Shown piece by piece: positions 2,057 to 64,000 of a stretch of DNA of 64,000 nucleotides. How positions within the stretch are numbered: position 1 is the first letter of the stretch; the number at the start of each line of letters is the position of its first letter. This DNA is from Megamerina dolium (lineage: Eukaryota; Arthropoda; Insecta; Diptera; Megamerinidae): assembly GCA_963854835.1 (NCBI GenBank), contig OY978528.1, positions 8,712,242 through 8,776,241 of the forward strand, read 5' to 3'. Both the position numbers and the translations under genes were made by a program. A model generated the notes under the pieces. The model had not been told where the DNA came from. It ran no database searches and worked only from the letters and a program-made list of their open reading frames with translations.

Positions 2057-3356
2057 AAGGGTTATCCATTTTGCGGTTTCAAAAGTAAATGTAAATAAAA
2101 CACATATAAAATATTTTTTATCATGATATTTCTTTTTTATTATAAAGTTTGAACGTTGACATTATGTGTGAAATACTACATCATTTAAATGACCACCACG
2201 CGAATTGTTGCAAGCATCGATTCTTTTGAGGTAATTTTCGACCACTTTTTGACACATATTGGGCGGTATCTCAGCCATAACGTGACGAATGTTGGTTTTT
2301 AGGTGCTCAAGAGTTAAAGGTTTATCTGCATAAACACGGTCTTTCGTGTAGCCCCACAAAAAAAAAGTCAAGCGGTGTCAAATCGCATGATCTTGGTGGC
2401 CACTTGATATCGCCACGACGAGAAATTACGTGGCCAGAAAATTTCTCTTGCAATAAAGCCATATTCGCTCGAGTTGTGTGGCATGTGGCACCGTCTTGTT
2501 GAAACCACATATTCTCTAAGCCGTATTCTTCAATAGCAGGCAAAAAAAAAGTCGGTTATCATATGACCATAACGCTACGAATTGACGGTGACAGTCGTTC
2601 CATCGTCGTTTTCGAAGAAGTAAGGTCCAATCACACCTTCGGACCAAAGAGCGCACCAAGCAGTGACTTTTTGTGGATGTAGTGGCATCTCTTCAATTAT
2701 TTGAGGATTCTCAGAACCCCAAATACGACAATTTTGTTTGTTAACATACCCACCGAGTAAGAAATGTGCTTCGTCGCTGAAGAAAATTTTGTTCGAAAAA
2801 TCGCCGTCCATCGCCTGTTTTTCAAGCACCCATTCGACGTATTTACGACGTTGTGAATGGTCAGCTGGCTTCAGTTGTTGTATGAGCTGGATTTTATATG
2901 GATGTAGGTGTAGATCCAAATGCAAAATACGCCATAATGTGCCGTAAGACAGTCCTAATTCCTGAGAACGACGAGGAATCGACACATTCGGGTCTTCGGC
3001 AACACTTTCACTTACAGCAGCGATATTTTCGGTGGTACGAGCGAAACGATGATGCACAGGCCTTACAATATCTGTCCAGTCTCTTCATATTTCTTCATAA
3101 TTTTGCCAATTGCTTGCGTAGTTGGACGATTATGTAAACCATAATCTCCTCTTAAAGCACGATATGTGGCTGTGGCAGAATCACCATTTTTGTAGTAGGT
3201 TTTTACAATTTTAATGCGTTGTGCGATAGTTAAGCGATCCATTTTCGCAAATGTAAGACTTTAAACTGAAAAAGAAAGAAATTGTTTTAACAACTCAGTT
3301 TGACAGATGTCGAATTCTAGCCCTATACTTTTGAAACCACGAAATGGATAACCCTT
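2057..3356 (-). mobile_element. Complete but inactive DD41D (rosa-type) mariner element
   Basis: A 1300-bp element bounded by 31-bp terminal inverted repeats that begin AAGGGTTATCCATTT and finish with GGTTTCAAAAGTA; I count 2 mismatches between the ends. It is flanked by TA at 2055-2056 and 3357-3358, the canonical Tc1/mariner target duplication. The transposase lies on the minus strand. Counting between the second aspartate (QQDGATCH) and the third (LTPLDFF) gives 41 residues, so it falls in the DD41D group, known from tephritid flies as rosa. Confidence 0.92.
2162..3242 (-). pseudogene. DD41D mariner transposase pseudogene
   Basis: The ATG at 3242 opens MDRLTIAQRIKIVKTYYKNG, a helix-turn-helix N-terminus. 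The frame breaks near 3075 (a one-base shift) and resumes with RPVHHRFARTTENIAAVSES. The catalytic core shows FFSDEAHF (first D) and GVIGPYFFEND, then reaches an in-frame TAG at about 2575. It shifts again in a T9 run near 2545 before PAIEEYGL...QQDGATCHT (second D) and PRSCDLTPLD (third D). A last shift in the T-rich stretch near 2365 precedes FFLWGYTKDRVY and the C-terminus ending NDVVFHT. All three acidic residues survive, but at least three frameshifts and one stop make the gene non-functional. Breaks cluster in homopolymers, so some could be assembly errors. Confidence 0.9.
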
Positions 3357-40628: not shown

Positions 40629-42660
40629 AAATTACTGTGCCCTGTCAATTAACCGAGAAAGTGTTCACCTTGAAAATTTGGATTCACAACACTTTCTTAA
40701 TAGTTCTGAGACATGACTCTTTGATAATAGTCTGCAGACAGATTTCGCTTGTATGCAATGTCATTGGGCTTCTCTTTTAGCAAAATAGTCAGCACTCACG
40801 TTTGTTTTCATGTTCCTCATGCTTGGTAATCCGTCATAATGATACGGTATTGTGTTTGCCGACAATGGCAAATAAATCGGTATGAAATATGGTTGGGTGC
40901 ACACCCATGGGCGGGGCCCTTTTGGCACCAAAGCAAGATTATCTTAGTTAAATCCTGCAATGGCAGACATCATTTTGTCCTAAATCGTAGAGTCGGTATG
41001 GCTCAGGAGATGTGGCTCTGTGATAGACCGCAGAAAGGTTTCGGTTCTAATAAAGATCATTGTGCTCCTCTTTTACCAAGACAGTCAACATTTGCGTTTT
41101 TTCATGTCCCTCATGCCTGGAAATCTGCCACAGTGATACGGTGTTGTGTTCGCCAACAATGGCAAATAGTTCTGTCTGAAATATGGTTGGGTGCACACCC
41201 ATGGGCAGACATCTTTTTTCCCTAGATTGTCGAGTCGATATGGTTCTTTGATAGTCTGCAAAAAGATTTCGGTTCTAATAAATCTCATTGGGCTCGTCTT
41301 TTAGCAAGACAGTTAGCACTCACGCTTTTAAATTACAGTGCCCTGTTAATTAACTTGTGAGAAATTTGGATTCACAACACTTTCTTAATAGTTCTGAGAC
41401 ATGACTCTTTGATAATAGTCTGCAGACAGATTTCGCTTGTATGCAATGTCATTGGGCTTCTCTTTTAGCGAAATAGTCAGCACTCACGCTTGTTTTCATG
41501 TTCCTCATGCTTGGTAATCCGTCATAATGATACGGTGTTGTGTTTGCCGACAATGGCAAAAAAAATCGGTCTGAAATATGGTTGGGTGCACACCCATGGG
41601 CAGCGCCCTTTTGGCACCAAAGCAAGATTATCTTAGTTAAATCCTGCAATGGCAGACATCATTTTGTCCTAAATCGTAGAGTCGGTATGGCTCAGGAGAT
41701 GTGGCTCTGTGATAGACCGCAGAAAGGTTTCTGTTCTAATAAAGAGCATTGTGCTCCTCTTTTACCAAGACAGTCAACATTCGCGTTTTTTCATGTCCCT
41801 CATGCCTGGAAATCCGCCACAGTGATACGGTGTTGTGTTCGCCAACAATGGCAAATAGTTCTGTGTGAAATATGGTTGGGTGCACACCCATGGGCAGACA
41901 TCTTTTTTCCCTAGATTGTCGAGTCGATATGGCTCTTTGATAGTCTGCAAAAAGATTTCGGTTCTAATAAATCTCATTGTGCTCGTCTTTTAGCAAGACA
42001 GTTAGCACTCACGCTTTTAAATTACAGTGCCCTGTTAATTAACTTGTGAGAAATTTGGATTCACAACACTTTCTTAATAGTTCTGAGACACGACTCTTTG
42101 ATAATAATCTGCAGATAGATTTCGCTTGTATGCAATGTCATTGGGCTTCTCTTTTAGCAAAATAGTCAGCACGCACGCTTGTTTTCATGTTCCTCATGCC
42201 TGGAAATCCGCCACAGTGATACGGTGTTGTGTTCGCCAACAATGGCAAATAGTTCTGTCTGAAATATGGTTGGGTGCACACCCATGGGCAGCGCCCTTTT
42301 GGCACCAAAGCAAGATTATCTTAGTTAAATCCTGCAATGGCAGACATCATTTTGTCCTAAATCGTAGAGTCGGTATGGCTCAGGAGATGTGGCTCTGTGA
42401 TAGACCGCAGAAAGGTTTCGGTTCTAATAAAGATCATTGTGCTCCTCTTTTACCAAGACAGTTAGCACTCACGCTTTTATTTCATGTCCCTCATGCTCGG
42501 AAATCCGCCACAGTAATACGGTGTTGTGTATGCCGGCAATGCCAAATAGTTCTGTCTGAAATATGGTTCGATGCACACCCATGGGCAGCGCCCTTTGGCA
42601 CCAAAGTAAGAATATCTTACCTAAACGCTATAATGGCAGACATACTTTTGCCCGAGATCG
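40629..42660. repeat. 690-bp higher-order tandem array
   Basis: The block GGTTGGGTGCACACCCATGG and its surroundings recur six times. The associated TAC.GGT.TTGTGT motif falls at about 40839, 41133, 41528, 41823, 42218 and 42511, with alternating spacings of about 294 and 395 bp. This makes a two-part 690-bp unit repeated nearly three times, with the last monomer diverging. The units keep long open frames on both strands (up to 210 codons on plus, 42126-42758), which recur only because the sequence repeats. No protein family recognised. Confidence 0.88.
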
Positions 42661-42940
42661 TCGAGTCGATCTCCTCTTTTTACAAATTAACAGCATTTTT
42701 TGCAGAAATACACGTAGCCCACCTGTCGGCGAACAACTTAGAGTTCTTTCAACAGTAGAAATTTACCGCGAAATTACTGCTGACAGTCAATGATCTGTGG
42801 CATGTTTTGGAAAAATTTATTGATCTACGATGTGCCTTTTAAAATCGATAATATTTAACTCCCTCTCACCCTAATAATAAAATCTTAGTTTTTTTTTGAA
42901 ATTCTTTGAAACATTTCTGCACTTAACGAATTAATATATA
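42661..42940. other. Spacer
   Basis: Nothing recognised. Confidence 0.4.
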
Positions 42941-44180: not shown

Positions 44181-45094
44181 CGACTGTACAGGGATGTTAC
44201 TTATCGATATATTTTTACTTAAATGCCACAAATTTTTATACTAAATTTATAAAGAATAAGAAAATTGTTGTTATGAAAATATTTTTCAATTTTTGAAACA
44301 TTTTGGGTTTCGAGGTCACCTAAGCTCTTCTTATAATTTTATATCAGTTTCTTTCATCCAACTAAAAGATGACAATTGACAATAAAGGAATATTCTAATG
44401 TATTTATTTATTTTAACGAATTAATTCTAATATCTATTGTCATATTAATTATTATATTACTATTTTATTCTCTACTCGACTGTGCAGGGATGTTACTTAT
44501 CGATATATTTTCACTTAAATGCCAAAAAAAGTTTATACTAAATTTATAAAGAATAAGAAAATTGTTGTTATGAGAATATTTTTCAATTTTTGAAACATTT
44601 TGGGTTTCGAGGTCACCTAAGCTCTTCTTATAATTTTATATCAGTTTCTTTCATCCAACTAAAAGATGACAATTGACAATAAAAGAACCTTCTAATGTAT
44701 TTAGAAGGTTTGCTTTTAGGTGTTTTTACGTATTAATTCTAATATCTATTTTCATATTAATTATTATATTAGTTTTTTGTTCTCTTCTCGACTCTACAGG
44801 GATGTTACTTATCGATATATTTTTACTTAAATGCCCAAAATTTATACAAAATTTTGTAAAGAATAGGAAAATTGTTGTTATGGAAATAATTTTCTATTTT
44901 TGAAACATTTTGGGTATCTAGGTTGCCCAAGCTCTTCTTGACCCTTGATATTAGTTTCTTTAAGCAAACCTGTCTAGATGACAATTGACAATTAAGGACC
45001 CTTCTAATGTATTTATTTCCTTTAACGAATTCATTTTAATATCTATTTTCATATTAATTATTATATTAAAATTTTATTCTCTTTTCTTTTGCAG
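44181..45094 (+). repeat. ~300-bp tandem repeat (3 units) ending at a splice-like site
   Basis: Units start at CAGGGATGTTACTTATCGAT near 44188, 44485 and 44797 (spacing about 297 and 312 bp). They share CATTTTGGGTTTCGAGGTCA and GATGACAATTGACAAT blocks. Each ends in a pyrimidine-rich stretch and YAG. The last unit's end is the CAG of the recursive splice-like motif at 45094. Confidence 0.85.
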
Positions 45095-46668: not shown

Positions 46669-46674
46669 TTTATT
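46669..46674 (-). terminator. Poly(A) signal of the repetitive secreted-protein gene
   Basis: AATAAA on the minus strand, about 96 bp after the stop codon, followed by T/A-rich sequence. It gives a 3' UTR of roughly 110-130 nt. Confidence 0.6.
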
Positions 46675-46769: not shown

Positions 46770-48446
46770 TTATCCTTTGAGGTTCTTTAAAATGATCACT
46801 GGCGATTTTGGAGCTAAGACAGATCGCTTCTTGATCACTTTAATAATTTGTGCAGGGCGATTGTGTGTGTTCAGCGAACGTCCTTTGCGGCCCTTTAAAA
46901 TTACTACAGGCGATTTTGGAGCTAAGACGGATCTCTTCTTGATCACTTTTATGACTTGCACAGGTTGCTTCATTGTAGTCAATGAACGCCCTTTGCGACC
47001 TTTAAGAATGACCACTGGCGATTTTGGACTCAAGACGGATCTCTTCTTGATCACTTTTATGACTTGCACAGGTTGCTTTAATGTAGTCAATGAACGTCCT
47101 TTGCGACCCTTTACAAGAACTACTGGCGATTTTGGACCTAAGACGGATCTCTTCTTAATGACTTTTATGACTTGCACAGGTTGCTTCAATGTAGTTAATG
47201 AACGTCCTTTGCGGCCTTTAAGAATGACCACTGGCGATTTTGGACTCAAGACGGATCTCTTCTTAATGACTTTTATGACTTGCACAGGTTGCTTCAATGT
47301 AGTCAATGAACGTCCTTTGCGACCTTTAAGAATGACCACTGGCGATTTTGGACTCAAGACGGATCTCTTCTTAATGACTTTTATAACTTGCACAGGTTGC
47401 TTCAATGTAGTCAATGAACGTCCTTTGCGACCTTTTAGAATAACCACTGGTGATTTTGGACTCAAGACGGATCTCTTCTTTATCACTTTAATGATTTGAG
47501 GAGCGCTTTTGAGTGTGTTCAATGAGCGTCCTTTGCGACCCTTTACAATAACTACTGGTGATTTAGGACTCAAGACGGACCTCTTCTTGATCACTTTTAT
47601 GACTTGGACAGGTTGCTTCAATGTAGTCAATGAACGTCCTTTGCGGCCTTTAAGAATGACCACTGGCGATTTTGGACTCAAGACGGATCTCTTCTTGATC
47701 ACTTTAATGATTTGAGGAGCGCTTTTGAGTGTGTTCAATGAGCGTCCTTTGCGACTCTTTACAATAACTACTTGTGATTTAGGACTCAAGACGGACCTCT
47801 TCTTGATCACTTTTATGACTTGGACAGGTTGCTTCAATGTAGTCAATGAACGTCCTTTGCGACCTTTAAGAATGACCACTGGCGATTTTGGACTCAAGAC
47901 GGATCTCTTCTTGATCACTTTAATGATTTGAGGAGCGCTTTTGAGTGTGTTCAATGAACGTCCTTTGCGGCCCTTTACAAGAACTACTGGCGATTTTGGA
48001 CCCAAGACGGATCTCTTTTTAATCACTTTTATGACTTGCACAGGCTGCTTCATTGTAGTCAATGAACGTCCTTTGCGACCTTTAAGAATGACGACTGGCG
48101 ATTTTGGACTCAAGACGGATCTCTTCTTAATGACTTTTATGACTTGCACAGGTTGCTTCAATGTAGTTAATGAACGTCCTTTGCGGCCTTTAAGAATGAC
48201 CACTGGCGATTTGGAGCTCAAGACGGATCTCTTCTTGATCACTTTTATGACTTGCACAGGTTGCTTCATTGTATTTAGTGAACGTCCTTTGCGACTCTTT
48301 ACAATGACCACTGGTGTTTTTGGACTTAAGACGGACCTCTTTTTGATCACTTTTATGACTGTTGCAGGGCCTTTTAGTGTGTTCAACGAACGTCCTTTGC
48401 GGTTCTTGGTAAGAACAATAGGTGTTTTTACTAATGGAATTGCACG
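46770..48446 (-). repeat. 108-bp coding tandem repeat
   Basis: The exon-2 array is built of in-frame 108-bp units that are highly similar at the nucleotide level. Two variants of the second half occur: TLKQPVQVIKVI and TLKSAPQIIKVI. They alternate strictly over 47498-48000, giving an exact 216-bp period (GAGGAGCGCTTTTGAGTGTG on plus at about 47498, 47714 and 47930). The last unit ends KNLKG at the stop. Confidence 0.95.
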
Positions 48447-48777
48447 AATCTTACGACCGGTATTATCCTTTACAGATTTCGTTGTCAGAAGGGTCTTGGT
48501 AGTCCTGGCGGTGCCATCTTTTGAGGGTGCATTAAGCACGGTTGGCTTAGCTTTGTCCACAATTGTCGCCCCTGCTTTTAACGTTTTGTCATCCTGCGTT
48601 GGTTTTTGACCAGCTTTTATTGGAACATCCGCGGCTGTTGCTACTATGCTCAATAGTAGTAACCCTATTCAAAAAAGGATTATGCAAATTTGATTTCAAT
48701 ATCTTCATAATTTTAAGATAATGAACAAATATCAGTTTCAATATTTTACCTGCGGTGAGTACGATTGTTAACTTCAT
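46770..48777 (-). CDS. Secreted, lysine-rich 36-residue-repeat protein; putative multi-peptide precursor
   Basis: Two exons: 48777-48750 (28 nt) and 48664-46770, joined across an 85-bp intron (GTAAAAT...GAATAG). The spliced frame encodes 640 residues. The N-terminus MKLTIVLTAGLLLLSIVATA is a textbook signal peptide; the ATG and hydrophobic core are joined only by splicing. A K/T/D-containing spacer (about residues 21-82) and a degenerate unit follow. From residue 117 there are 14 full units plus 20 residues of a 36-residue repeat. Each unit has two 18-residue halves, typified by SVLSPKSPVVILKGRKGR and SLTTLKQPVQVIKVIKKR. The typical unit has ten Lys/Arg and no acidic residue; the protein has no cysteine. 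IKKR and GRKGR fit convertase/furin-type cleavage, and G-R-K could yield an amidated end (inference). No family recognised. Alternatives are cationic antimicrobial peptides, neuropeptide-like or seminal peptides, or a structural secretion. Confidence 0.88.
48665..48749 (-). other. 85-bp intron of the repetitive secreted-protein gene
   Basis: Starts GTAAAATATT after GCAG and ends TTTTTTGAATAG before GGTTACTACT. The size is typical for small fly introns. It splits a glycine codon within the signal peptide (phase 1). Confidence 0.8.
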
Positions 48778-48829
48778 TCTTCTGGAGGTTGTAAAACTGT
48801 TTTACATCTTCTCAAAGGATTTACATCGG

Positions 48830-48837
48830 TTTATATA
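48830..48837 (-). promoter_or_regulatory. TATA box of the repetitive secreted-protein gene
   Basis: TATATAAA on the minus strand, 53 bp before the ATG. Transcription would start near 48805 with a ~30-nt 5' UTR. A strong TATA box and short UTR are common in highly expressed, tissue- or stimulus-specific secreted-protein genes. Confidence 0.65.
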
Positions 48838-49324
48838 CACAATTCGAAACTCAGAAACAAGCTCACATTAGGCGGAAAGAAAATGAAAGTGTTTTTCGAG
48901 TTGAATGTTTGTTGTTCTGATTTGTTTGTTGAACTTTGCATTCATCTAAAAATATCAAACATATTGAATATAAATGAGGTGTGTATGCCTTGTTGATGGG
49001 ATTTGGGTGCAATTCAAATTTGACGCAATCTGATGCAAATTTAACCAGTTTGCATGTCATCATTGTCTGGTAATAATTAAATTTGAATTAAATAATTCTT
49101 TATCGTAATTTTATTTTAATTTTTTAATGAAGCAGGAAAACAAATTGAATAAATTTATCGAAAAAAAAAATTATATAATAGAATAATATGTATAGCAGCA
49201 TATGTAAGTATTTTCCATTGAGACCTAGGCTTTATATACCAAGATATTTTAAACTCATTACGCTTCGTCTGGTCGTGTTTAAAGCTGAAACTCAGTTTAT
49301 CTGATTATATTTATTAAATAATAG
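48838..49324. other. Upstream region of the precursor gene
   Basis: Likely holds the promoter-proximal control region. No transcription-factor site can be named with confidence. Confidence 0.4.
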
Positions 49325-50040
49325 ATGAGCTTAAAAATGGATGAAATAGGATGAAAACTACGACGACTCGCCCTTACGAAAGCATGTTTTCAAATGATTG
49401 ATTTCATAGTTTTGGCATGCAAGCATAATGCTACCGAGGTGAAATTTTGTACTCTCGATTATATCTACCAATTAATGAAAAATTAAAAAAAAAAGAGATG
49501 TAATTGGCTGAAAATTAGACTGACCTCCCATACAAAGGTATGCTTTCAAATGAGTGATTTTGCACAAACACATAAAGTTAACAGGTTAAAACTCAATAAA
49601 TACAATTATATCTGCTAACAAATGATCAAATTAAAAAATAAACGTAATGAGGTGAAAATTACCCAGACCTCCCATACAAAAATATGTTTTCAAATAATTA
49701 ATTTCACACTTTTCAAGCAAACAAACAATGTTATAGAGCTGAAATTAAGCATGTGCGATTATATTTGCTAGTTAATATACCATCTTGAGAATGAATGGAA
49801 TCGGATGAAAACTACGTCTACCTCCCATACAAATGTCTGCTTTCGAATGCGTCTTTTCACACATTGTGTACAAAAAATACAAAGCTATAACAAAACAAAG
49901 ACCTGGCATGTGTGATTTTATATGATAATGAATCAAAGGGTTAATGAAAAGTTCAATTCGAATGAAAATTACGTCTATCTCTCATACAAAAGTATGTTTT
50001 CAAATCATGAAATTTCAAATTTAAGTCTTTTAAGCTCAAA
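49325..50040. repeat. Degenerate ~150-bp tandem repeat (5 units)
   Basis: The motif CTCCCATACAAA..TATG followed by TTTTCAAATG recurs at about 49373, 49527, 49670, 49825 and 49978, spaced 143-155 bp. GATGAAAACTACG-like and GATTATATCTGCTA-like blocks lie between. The CCATACAAA core resembles the satellite at 21.6 and 59.3 kb, but the rest differs. Confidence 0.7.
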
Positions 50041-54399: not shown

Positions 54400-55290
54400 A
54401 AATGACTTCCATTTGCCTTTCAGCATGACTTGAGACGATCTGGCCACTCAGCGATCGCGAAACGCACTTCATGCATGGGGAAATTGTCCACTGCATAGAC
54501 AAGGGCGCGATTTAACGACGCAATATTTGTGTGTCGAGAGGAGCAAGTCATGCCTTCTAATATGGAGCACAACTTGTAATCTAATGGATTGAGTTCTGGA
54601 CTACCAGCTGGCCAATCATCCGTTGATATGAAGTCCGGAATGTTGTTTTTTAGACACAGTTGAGTCGTTTTTGCCTTGTGAGCTAGAGCAGAGGCCACTT
54701 TAGATCCTCGGGATGAATTGAGATGCTTCTCTGGATGATCGAGCATACACACGATCATTGTGTTTATTGAACGATTCTTCTACGGTGAAGATTTTCTCGT
54801 CAGTAAACAGAATTTGTCTGTGAGCGTACCGGCTGCGTAACGCTTTCGATTTTCATTTGCGTTTTCCCTCCAATGCGGCCGTGAGCAAGTGTCCAGTGTG
54901 TCGCTTGTACGCGCTGAGTCCCAAATCTTCATGAACATGGATTTTTATGAAATTTATATTTCCCGCGATAAGATTTTCTGTTTTCGCAGCGGTTTTCGAT
55001 CGATTCGTTTCAACATCGATTTCGGAGTTCACGCAATGCGCGGACGGCCAGATCTTTGACGGTCTCGTACTCCACCAGCATCCTCAAACAACCTCACAGC
55101 ACGATAGTGCATTTTAGTAGGCCAATTACAACAATACGACTTTCGATGTCGCTCCATTCCGTGATTGCATACATTTGATGCCAAAAACTTTTTACGTGGC
55201 AATGAAGCATAAATGTCAACTGTCAAATTGCAGCCGACATGAAATGGATGCGTCCAATATTGCATTGGTAATGAATGCGTTTAATTGTGT
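54400..55290 (-). mobile_element. Decayed maT-like (DD37D) Tc1/mariner element
   Basis: Minus-strand transposase remnant without recognisable inverted repeats, so the borders are approximate. Family assignment rests on the catalytic C-terminus spacing. Confidence 0.7.
54420..55265 (-). pseudogene. maT-like transposase pseudogene
   Basis: N-terminal part: HYRAVRLFEDAGGVRDRQRS, then GRPRIA. The middle, in broken frames, includes a block like FTVEESFNKHNDRVYARSSR. The C-terminal part reads ALAHKAKTTQLCLKNNIPDF, ISTDDWPAGSPELNPLDY and EWPDRLKSC. From the position of the second aspartate (replaced by A in ASALAHKAK) to the third (PLDY) there are 37 residues, the DD37D spacing. About 70-80 residues between the first and second catalytic positions are missing. 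Inactive. Confidence 0.8.
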
Positions 55291-62150: not shown

Positions 62151-63895
62151 TATTCGAAGGGGGAATCTTTCTTAGATACCGTCCACCATAGACGGCATGT
62201 ACGATTCATACTGTCCGCTAAAGGTACACCTCATTCGGGACCACGCCCAGTCAGTAATATCTTACTATGCTGGACTTGCGAACCAGTACGCCTACGTACT
62301 AAACCCTTAACTCCGACCTCTATAGCTTGTTTGTGTCCTGCGGGACCGCCGTTAAGCACTACTTCGCAGGACTAAGCTGAGCTAATATGCCTCTTCAAAC
62401 ATCCCGTACATGGCGTTCACACAGCTGCAGTTATATTTCTCCGCTGCCACTCCTTCTTCCTGAGCTCCTTGAGAGCTATTGCAGCCCATTCTTTCATCTT
62501 AAACCACACTAAACTCGATCGCAGCATATGGCTCACAATGTTATCAGGTGTTATCCTTTCATTTATTATCTTCTCTATGGTCATTCTCTGCGTCTCAAAT
62601 CTTAGGCAGAAGAAAAAGATATGCTGAGCGTTTTCGCCAACAGTGTTGCAGAATGAACATTCTGTCGCGTCATCATGACCGAATCTGTGGAGGTACTCTC
62701 TGAAACAACCATGGCCCGTCAAAAACTGCGTAAGGTAGTAGTCTGTCTCTCCGTGTCCTCTTTCGACCCAAGCTTGCACGTTTCTGATGAGCCTGTGGGT
62801 CCACCTCCCTTTTCCTGCGGCGTCCCATTGACTTTGCCATTCATCTAGGCTCGTCTGTCTCTCCTCTTTCCGTTCGGTTGCCGTTAACCGTCTATTCAGG
62901 CTTTTGGTTCTGCTATATACTCTGCCCAACTCCGAGGCCATTATGTCCGGCGGCATAATGCCGGATATAATACCGGCACCTTCTTGTGACACTGTCCTAA
63001 ATGCACATGCAACTCTAATAGCGCTTAACCTGAAAACTATCTTCGCCTTCTTCGAGTATGTCTTTTGCCGCAGAGCTGCCCCCCATATAGGCGCCGCGTA
63101 CATCAATATTGATTGACTGACTTTAGCCAGGAGCGCTCTCCTACTCTGGCTGGGGCCACCAATGTTGGCCATGATTCTCGTCAGAGCCGCTGTCATTGTT
63201 GCCGCCTTCCCGCAGGCTTTTTCGATATGCGCCTTGAAGTTGAGCCTCGTATCAATCATTACACCTAGATATCTCAACGAAGGTTGCGTTGTAATGTTGT
63301 AGCCGTCAATGTTTAGGGTGATTTTTTCGAGTTTTTTCCTGCTCGTGATAAGTACAGCCTCTGTTTTCTGTACCGCAAGCTGGAGCTTTGTCGTCGTGAG
63401 CCAATCCTTAATTTTCGAAGCTGTCTCTCTGCAGATGCTCTGAACTTGGGAGAGCTCCTTCGCAACGATCGTCACGGCAATGTCGTCCGCGTAGCCAATT
63501 ATCTGGGCTTCTTTTGGCAATGGAAGGTTTAACACCCCATCGTACAGCACGTTCCACAGTAGCGGGCCAAGTACAGATCCCTGCGGCACTCCACCCGTCA
63601 CCACGTAGCTTTTGGGCCCTTCGTCCGTGTCATACAACAGTAGTCTGTCAGACAGATAACTATTTATTATTCGCATTAGGTACGCTGGCGTTCCCTTTGC
63701 CTCCAATGCCCTCATAATAAGATGCCAGTTTGCCGAGTTGAAGGCATTTTGTACGTCTAGTGTCACTACTGCACAATATTTTTTATCGCCATGCATCCAT
63801 CTAGTGCCTTCTATGGCCTTGCCAGCAATGTCCGTCAATTTTCTAATTGCGTCTATGGTCGACCGATGTCTCCTGAAACCAAATTGGTTCTCGGA

Positions 63896-63898
<3 letters not shown>
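62120..63898 (-). mobile_element. 5'-truncated R1-clade LINE with poly(A) tail, inside a (TG)n tract
   Basis: Minus-strand element of about 1.78 kb. The 5' end is cut inside the RT domain exactly at a (CA)16 tract. The 3' end is a ~267-nt UTR followed by A30 (plus-strand T at 62121-62149). The other flank is (GT)5 (62111-62120), so microsatellite of the same kind lies on both sides. Confidence 0.88.
62417..63898 (-). CDS. R1-clade reverse transcriptase (C-terminal part of ORF2), frame intact
   Basis: About 494 codons are open from LSENQFGFRRHRST at the truncation to NITAAV, stop; the apparent start further up is a translation of the CA repeat. RT motifs in order: YCAVVTLDVQNAFNSANW (catalytic D), GGVPQGSVLGPLLWNVLYD, GYADDIAVTI (YADD active site), KTEAVLITSR and LRYLGVMIDTRLNF. 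The C-terminal zinc-knuckle-like motif ECSFCNTVGENAQHIFFFC has C-X2-C-X8-H-X4-C spacing as in R1 elements. No stop or frameshift is seen, unlike all other elements in the window, so it is a recent copy. It lacks ORF1, the endonuclease and the start of the RT, and cannot act alone. Confidence 0.9.

Positions 63899-63930
<32 letters not shown>
63899..63930. repeat. (TG)16 repeat flanking the R1-type LINE
   Basis: Perfect 32-bp TG tract abutting the truncated 5' end of the LINE. The remaining 70 bp to the window end show no feature. Confidence 0.95.
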
Positions 63931-63932
<2 letters not shown>

Positions 63933-64000
63933 AAAGTGCGATCGCACATAGTACATTTTCATATTTTAGATGATCACACGAAGGGGGCCACTGTATGTGA

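Follow-up and report, generated by a model that had tools for sequence, protein, structure and literature searches.

Is the long, strongly basic repeat protein encoded on the minus strand of this stretch of the Megamerina dolium genome a precursor that is cut into many short peptides, or a material secreted as one chain, and does it belong to any known family? The stretch analysed, here called the window, is 64,000 nt long. The coordinates given for the gene in an earlier description (46770–48777, minus strand) were found to be exact, and all gene features named below lie on the same strand. From its sequence, the locus looks like a real, selected and secreted gene that is so far unrecognised.

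Gene model and repeat architecture

A TATA-type box, TATATAAA, was read from the sequence at 48830–48837, and an Inr-like ACAGTT at 48795–48800 is the probable transcription start, which would leave a very short 5′ UTR. ACAGTT was assigned by comparison with the general Inr consensus; its spacing from TATATAAA is 35–39 nt, which is slightly long. Coding exon 1 (48750–48777) begins with the ATG at 48777, is 28 nt in length and contributes nine codons plus one nucleotide to the spliced translation, so that codon 10 (Gly) is split by the intron. The predicted GT-AG intron (48665–48749) has a length of 85 bp, is of phase 1 and lies within the signal peptide. Coding exon 2, delimited by the open reading frame and the spliced translation, spans 1895 nt (46770–48664) including the TAA stop codon at 46770–46772, and an AATAAA polyadenylation signal (46669–46674) follows about 100 nt 3′ of the stop. 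The TATA box, 28-nt exon, 85-bp intron, stop and AATAAA named in the original prediction were all confirmed.

The predicted spliced CDS is in frame and encodes 640 aa. Without splicing, the frame from the ATG closes at 62 aa, which bears out the claim that the signal peptide is restored solely by splicing: MKLTIVLTAGLLLLSIVATA, recognised by eye, is whole only in the spliced product. Its second half is encoded at 48633–48664 and ends at aa 20, with the cleavage point also judged by eye. Both secretion and a cationic repeat, as proposed before, are supported at this level.

The putative mature chain has 620 aa and a computed pI of about 12. It contains 118 Lys, 49 Arg and 6 Asp, lacks Glu, Cys, Phe, Tyr and Trp, and consists of 19.0% K, 14.7% V and 24.4% S + T + P. 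An N-terminal linker of 63 residues (aa 21–83; 48444–48632) holds all six Asp, and its C-terminal RKIR abuts the repeats. The label ‘acid-free’ is therefore correct for the repeat region and incorrect for the whole chain, which has six Asp (no Glu) at aa 22–76. The linker is followed by a diverged 36-aa unit, termed unit 0 (aa 84–119; 48336–48443), which departs from the consensus at 14 of 36 positions and keeps RKGR, KKR and all other basic positions, ten in total. Units 1–14 (46824–48335) are fourteen 36-aa units, each pairing an 18-aa A half-unit with an 18-aa B half-unit, and the chain closes with a partial A half-unit of 17 aa (46773–46823), in which Gly is followed by the stop. Tandem Repeats Finder reported a period of 108 bp and 14.7 copies. 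The 14.5 units counted previously need correction, as the protein register comprises 15 full 36-aa units, the diverged unit 0 included, and the 17-aa tail.

The 36-mer is itself a doubled 18-mer, with SVLSPKSPVVILKGRKGR as half-unit A and SLTTLKQPVQVIKVIKKR as half-unit B. When the consensus was compared with itself, offset 18 scored 56 vs 17 at the next best offset, and the A and B consensus sequences are identical at 7 of 18 positions (shuffle p = 0.0002 for the score and 0.001 for the identity). At the DNA level the likeness of A and B is weaker (22/54, codon-shuffle p 0.015). The array thus reads as 31 consecutive half-units, of which 15 are of type B and 16 of type A, the last A copy being one residue short at its end. 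A candidate diverged half-unit in the linker, just before unit 0, has a weak type-A likeness (shuffle p 0.012), and other linker offsets score at least as high. A further repeat relic in the 3′ UTR was not supported, its alignment score being matched by 152 of 1942 random stretches of the window. Searches of the window with tblastn, using the N-terminus and the unit as queries, gave no match beyond the gene itself with an E-value better than 0.16.

Selection, boundary motifs and predicted structure

In the coding frame, the 15 full units have a mean pairwise dN/dS of 0.19, and both other sense frames give values above 1. Since array units exchange sequence and are hence non-independent, the 0.19 is a description and not a test. 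Given this low value, the encoded protein appears to be under selection. The antisense frames gave 1.15, 2.31 and 0.39, the last of which shares codon positions with the coding frame.

The net charge is exactly +5 in 30/30 full half-units, and a Lys-to-Asn change in the final full unit is compensated by an adjacent Gln-to-Arg change. The 17-aa tail is less charged, with three Lys. Variable columns make up 1/10 of the basic positions and 18/26 of the others (Fisher p 0.0023), or 1/10 and 13/26 when unit 0 is excluded (p 0.054). With +5 throughout the full half-units and near-constant basic columns, the charge is very tightly held.

A basic motif is present at every half-unit boundary. All 31 RxxR/KKR motifs end on the 18-residue register (residues 83 to 623), starting with RKIR, which closes the linker right at the repeat start, and the residue that follows is Ser in 30 cases and Ala in one. 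RKGR or RKIR is kept at 16/16 sites preceding another half-unit. KKR contains all 15 Lys-Arg pairs of the chain, and an Arg-Lys pair is also present within RKGR. In the final copy (...KNLKG) the stop replaces the P1 Arg at position 18; it is the only copy without the motif Arg, and this terminal Gly is a single event. As in multi-peptide precursors, the signal peptide (judged by eye) is followed by repeats that are each bounded by a basic motif. In part of an article on insect neuropeptide precursors (PMC7179676), cleavage is described both at KKR and at single Arg.

The protein contains no canonical R-x-[KR]-R furin site and no acidic spacers between the repeats. RKGR, with Gly at P2, and KKR, with Ile at P4, are both weak furin sites. 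In addition, conservation of the inner Lys residues is about equal to that of the boundary motifs, so that the pattern is explicable by charge selection alone. These observations bear on the proposal that some 15 pairs of peptides are released at IKKR and GRKGR: the count holds, with 16 A and 15 B half-units and every motif on register, but the true repeat is 18 aa long, canonical furin sites are lacking and the inner Lys are about equally conserved. Release of peptides from the repeat precursor is plausible on this basis.

Structure prediction did not yield a fold. AlphaFold2 models were computed for four units with a 12-row alignment built from four-unit stretches of the window itself (mean pLDDT 31.7) and for another four-unit stretch without an alignment (mean pLDDT 36.2); all residues of both models are below 50. 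The aligned model shows a short strand per half-unit, which the single-sequence model does not reproduce. Such an absence of a predicted fold would be expected for unstructured peptides and equally for any disordered repeat. The hydrophobic moments of A and B were not above those of shuffled sequences (smallest shuffle fraction 0.20), and classical amphipathic antimicrobial peptides are therefore not indicated.

Relatives and interpretation of the repeat chain

No homologue was found at E 1 or better in a large protein collection among the 7990/7996 most word-sharing candidates, which were the ones scored. Flies are represented in this collection, as the R1-type reverse transcriptase used as a control matched fly proteins; taken alone, this one mobile element would point to a source among the cyclorrhaphan flies, perhaps close to Tephritidae. 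None of 122 pattern-matching stretches in prokaryote genome contigs and none of 22 in viral contigs was confirmed; fly genes are not expected in either. A 155-aa piece had no match in NCBIfam, and a literature text search with five 7-residue repeat pieces, whose scope leaves out figures and most subscription papers, returned no papers.

Several database matches were rejected. With a 627-aa query, Pfam UspB reached E 2.1e-07 and 31.3 bits (cut-off 28.6) and GlnR reached E 3.9e-05, below its cut-off; in both cases 0 stretches pass alone, and both matches are absent with a 191-aa query. We interpret the PDB match to Hax3 (E 5.4e-12, 47.8 bits, query residues 207–587) as an accumulation of small scores between repeat arrays that are unrelated to each other. 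Pfam Conotoxin (E 0.093, below cut-off, residues 1–36) was taken as a match to the signal peptide.

Among fly precursors, tandem Drosocin of D. neotestacea offers a parallel: according to part of PMC5078906, species of the subgenus Drosophila have a secreted precursor in which tandem copies are parted by furin-like sites, e.g. RVVR. The ERPPY and PRPT motifs of Drosocin are absent here. Tandem Drosocin has far fewer copies than the present array. Baramicin A is another fly precedent for a tandem peptide precursor, described in part of PMC8423362 as a polypeptide in which related tandem peptides stand between basic sites; its canonical RXRR sites and its VxRPxRTV and RPDGR motifs are absent from our protein. 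Insect neuropeptide precursors, as far as covered by the text cited above, share the KKR and single-Arg sites and C-terminal amidation, for which a possible C-terminal Gly exists here, but differ in that no known peptide motif was recognised in the present chain, which has 31 half-unit copies without acidic spacers.

The closest parallel in gene plan was found in the salivary glue genes of Drosophila. Parts of PMC10835880 give a first coding exon of 28 bp for Sgs1 in all species studied there, a phase-1 intron of 50–71 bp and an exon 2 of 1758–5861 bp with a long repeat. What defines the Sgs1-3-7-8-Eig71Ee family is an IRXC[L/V]C motif combined with a phase-1 intron that interrupts codon 10 (PMC10835880; also PMC6352337 and PMC9409817); larval expression in the salivary gland at the third instar is a further trait of these glue genes. 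According to PMC10835880, the 28-bp exon 1 is constant in Sgs1, Sgs3x and Sgs7-8 and varies from 19 to 31 bp in Sgs3e and Sgs3b. The present gene shares with this family the 28-bp exon 1 and a short codon-10 phase-1 intron inside the signal peptide, and with its repeat-bearing members a long exon 2 of internal repeats and a disordered product. It differs from Sgs1 in its longer intron (85 bp vs 50–71 bp) and from the mucin-like Pro/Ser/Thr repeats of Sgs proteins in its Lys/Val/Ile-rich, polycationic repeats. As there is no Cys in the 640 aa, the C-terminal IRXC[L/V]C is absent and the gene is by definition not a member of Sgs1-3-7-8-Eig71Ee. The C-terminal PCXXXXK motif of Sgs4-Sgs5-Sgs5bis is lacking for the same reason, and the new glue (ng) genes are set apart by a length below 180 aa, compared to 640 aa here, and by stretches of three or more Thr, whereas no TTT occurs in this protein. 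The first five residues presumably resemble those of Sgs3. The likeness to the glue family is one of gene plan, and we regard the exon/intron match to Sgs1-type genes as a lead, not as proof of descent. The original statement that no family was recognised thus stands for the protein, but not for the gene plan, which matches published Sgs1-type glue genes.

Based on these results, we favour a secreted concatemer that would be cleaved into cationic peptides at both kinds of boundary and that is built on a two-exon, glue-type gene plan, over an uncut polycationic secretory material, and give the former about an even chance of being right. A proprotein convertase of the secretory pathway would cut after KKR and RKGR, and a carboxypeptidase would then trim the basic ends. 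The trimmed A peptide would end in Gly (...KGRKG), which would make amidation possible; in the last copy this Gly terminus is already encoded. Processing would yield up to 16 A peptides, with 9 different sequences and a length of 17 aa prior to any amidation, and 15 B peptides of 15 aa (6 sequences), for example SVLSPKSPVVILKGRK-NH2 or SLTTLKQPVQVIKVI. Our guess from charge and composition is that they would bind anionic surfaces outside the cell, most simply microbial membranes or mucins. If cleaved, the chain would represent a fly precursor with many copies of cationic peptides, for which no family was found.

Less probable, but a serious competitor, is an uncut polycationic secretory material of about 68 kDa with an Sgs1-type plan, for example a glue, cement or protective coat protein from the larval salivary gland or an accessory gland, whose +5 per 18 residues would bind acidic mucins, chitin and surfaces and whose V/I-rich patches would associate as strands. 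The 28-bp exon 1, the codon-10 phase-1 intron and the repetitive 1895-bp exon 2 agree with Drosophila Sgs1, and glue genes of similar plan yield long disordered, repeat-bearing secretory proteins; however, without Cys the chain has neither the IRXC[L/V]C nor the PCXXXXK glue motif, and its repeat is not Pro/Ser/Thr mucin-like. A calliphorid is described in part of PMC9880899 as making no Sgs glue, so that a glue role outside the drosophilids is unsupported. The exact +5 in 30/30 full half-units, with the K-to-N change offset by Q-to-R, and the near-constant basic columns (1/10 vs 18/26 varying, p 0.0023, or 0.054 without unit 0) speak for a selected polycation, yet 31 evenly spaced boundary motifs, each followed by a small residue, are not needed in a plain polycation. 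The short strand per half-unit would suit such a material, but it is seen in one model, with pLDDT below 50 throughout, and the single-sequence model is without the regular strands. If uncut, the protein would represent a polycationic equivalent of the mucin-like glue proteins in which the charge per 18 residues is exactly held.

Two further readings are weaker. Cutting at KKR alone, with RKGR left uncut, would give about 15 peptides of 33–36 residues and a tail, in keeping with the confinement of all 15 Lys-Arg pairs to KKR and with a DNA-level repeat of 36 aa; we consider it unlikely, as RKGR/RKIR is kept at 16/16 sites, each followed by Ser or Ala, and the end of the chain coincides with the RKGR register. 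That the frame is non-functional, either a chance open minisatellite or a decayed relic, would fit surroundings rich in repeats and transposons and the lack of a homologue in the searches run, but is highly improbable in view of a coding-frame dN/dS of 0.19, compared with values above 1 in the other sense frames, 632 codons without a frameshift, a phase-matched intron that restores the signal peptide, and the TATA box, stop and AATAAA in place.

Under the preferred reading of a cleaved concatemer, we tentatively suggest, while holding it doubtful, an undescribed fly peptide family of up to 31 short cationic peptides in two alternating types, one Gly-ended for amidation and one free, which would have grown tandemly from an 18-residue ancestor behind the secretion module of a glue gene, such that a glue-type gene turned into a concatemer or the reverse. 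Because the 28-bp exon and the codon-10 intron are shared with glue genes, a single secretion module may have been combined with repeat payloads of very different kinds.

Genomic surroundings

The window has a G + C content of 32.6%; no tRNA and no Rfam family at the gathering threshold were found in it. Neighbouring frames were searched against Pfam at E 0.01 with 198 stop-to-stop ORFs, hand-trimmed from 242 listed, which themselves came from 427. Matches were obtained to 6 and 12 Pfam families, each in one member: besides families of transposon type (transposases, reverse transcriptase, RNase H, HTH), there were a PT repeat of low complexity (E 2.5e-06) and some weak matches to other families. 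No host genes suitable for synteny were recognised among these 198 ORFs. A weak match to glycoprotein hormone (E 0.0011) was set aside; it probably stems from a Cys-rich ORF on the strand opposite to the transposase-like frame at 2575–3084.

Upstream of the TATA box, two TGTTTGTT sites (48906–48913 and 48923–48930) were observed, which we take to be forkhead-like. As many within 400 bp upstream occur in 0.6% of windows, or 4.2% for TGTTTGY, figures that are statistically weak, with six patterns tried and the two broadest forkhead forms not enriched. Diverged direct repeats of about 69–79% identity lie at 49276–50008, roughly 0.5–1.2 kb upstream of the gene. A 312-bp repeat is present in about two copies at 44411–45015, and part of it recurs just before, around 44180. 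In addition, long imperfect tandem repeats, whose open frames share peptide stretches, extend over 40830–42760; these are absent from the tandem repeat listing, which has a maximum period of 500.

Fragments resembling mariner/Tc1-type transposases were recognised by eye at 2575–3084 and 54420–54779. The frame of an R1-type non-LTR reverse transcriptase was found at 62417–63958, with a (GT)n run (63898–63930) at its upstream end. Its best named relative is R1 of Zeugodacus cucurbitae (69% over 86% of the query), second best among the best 120 of 1084 matches, which also include Drosophila nasuta and Hermetia illucens.
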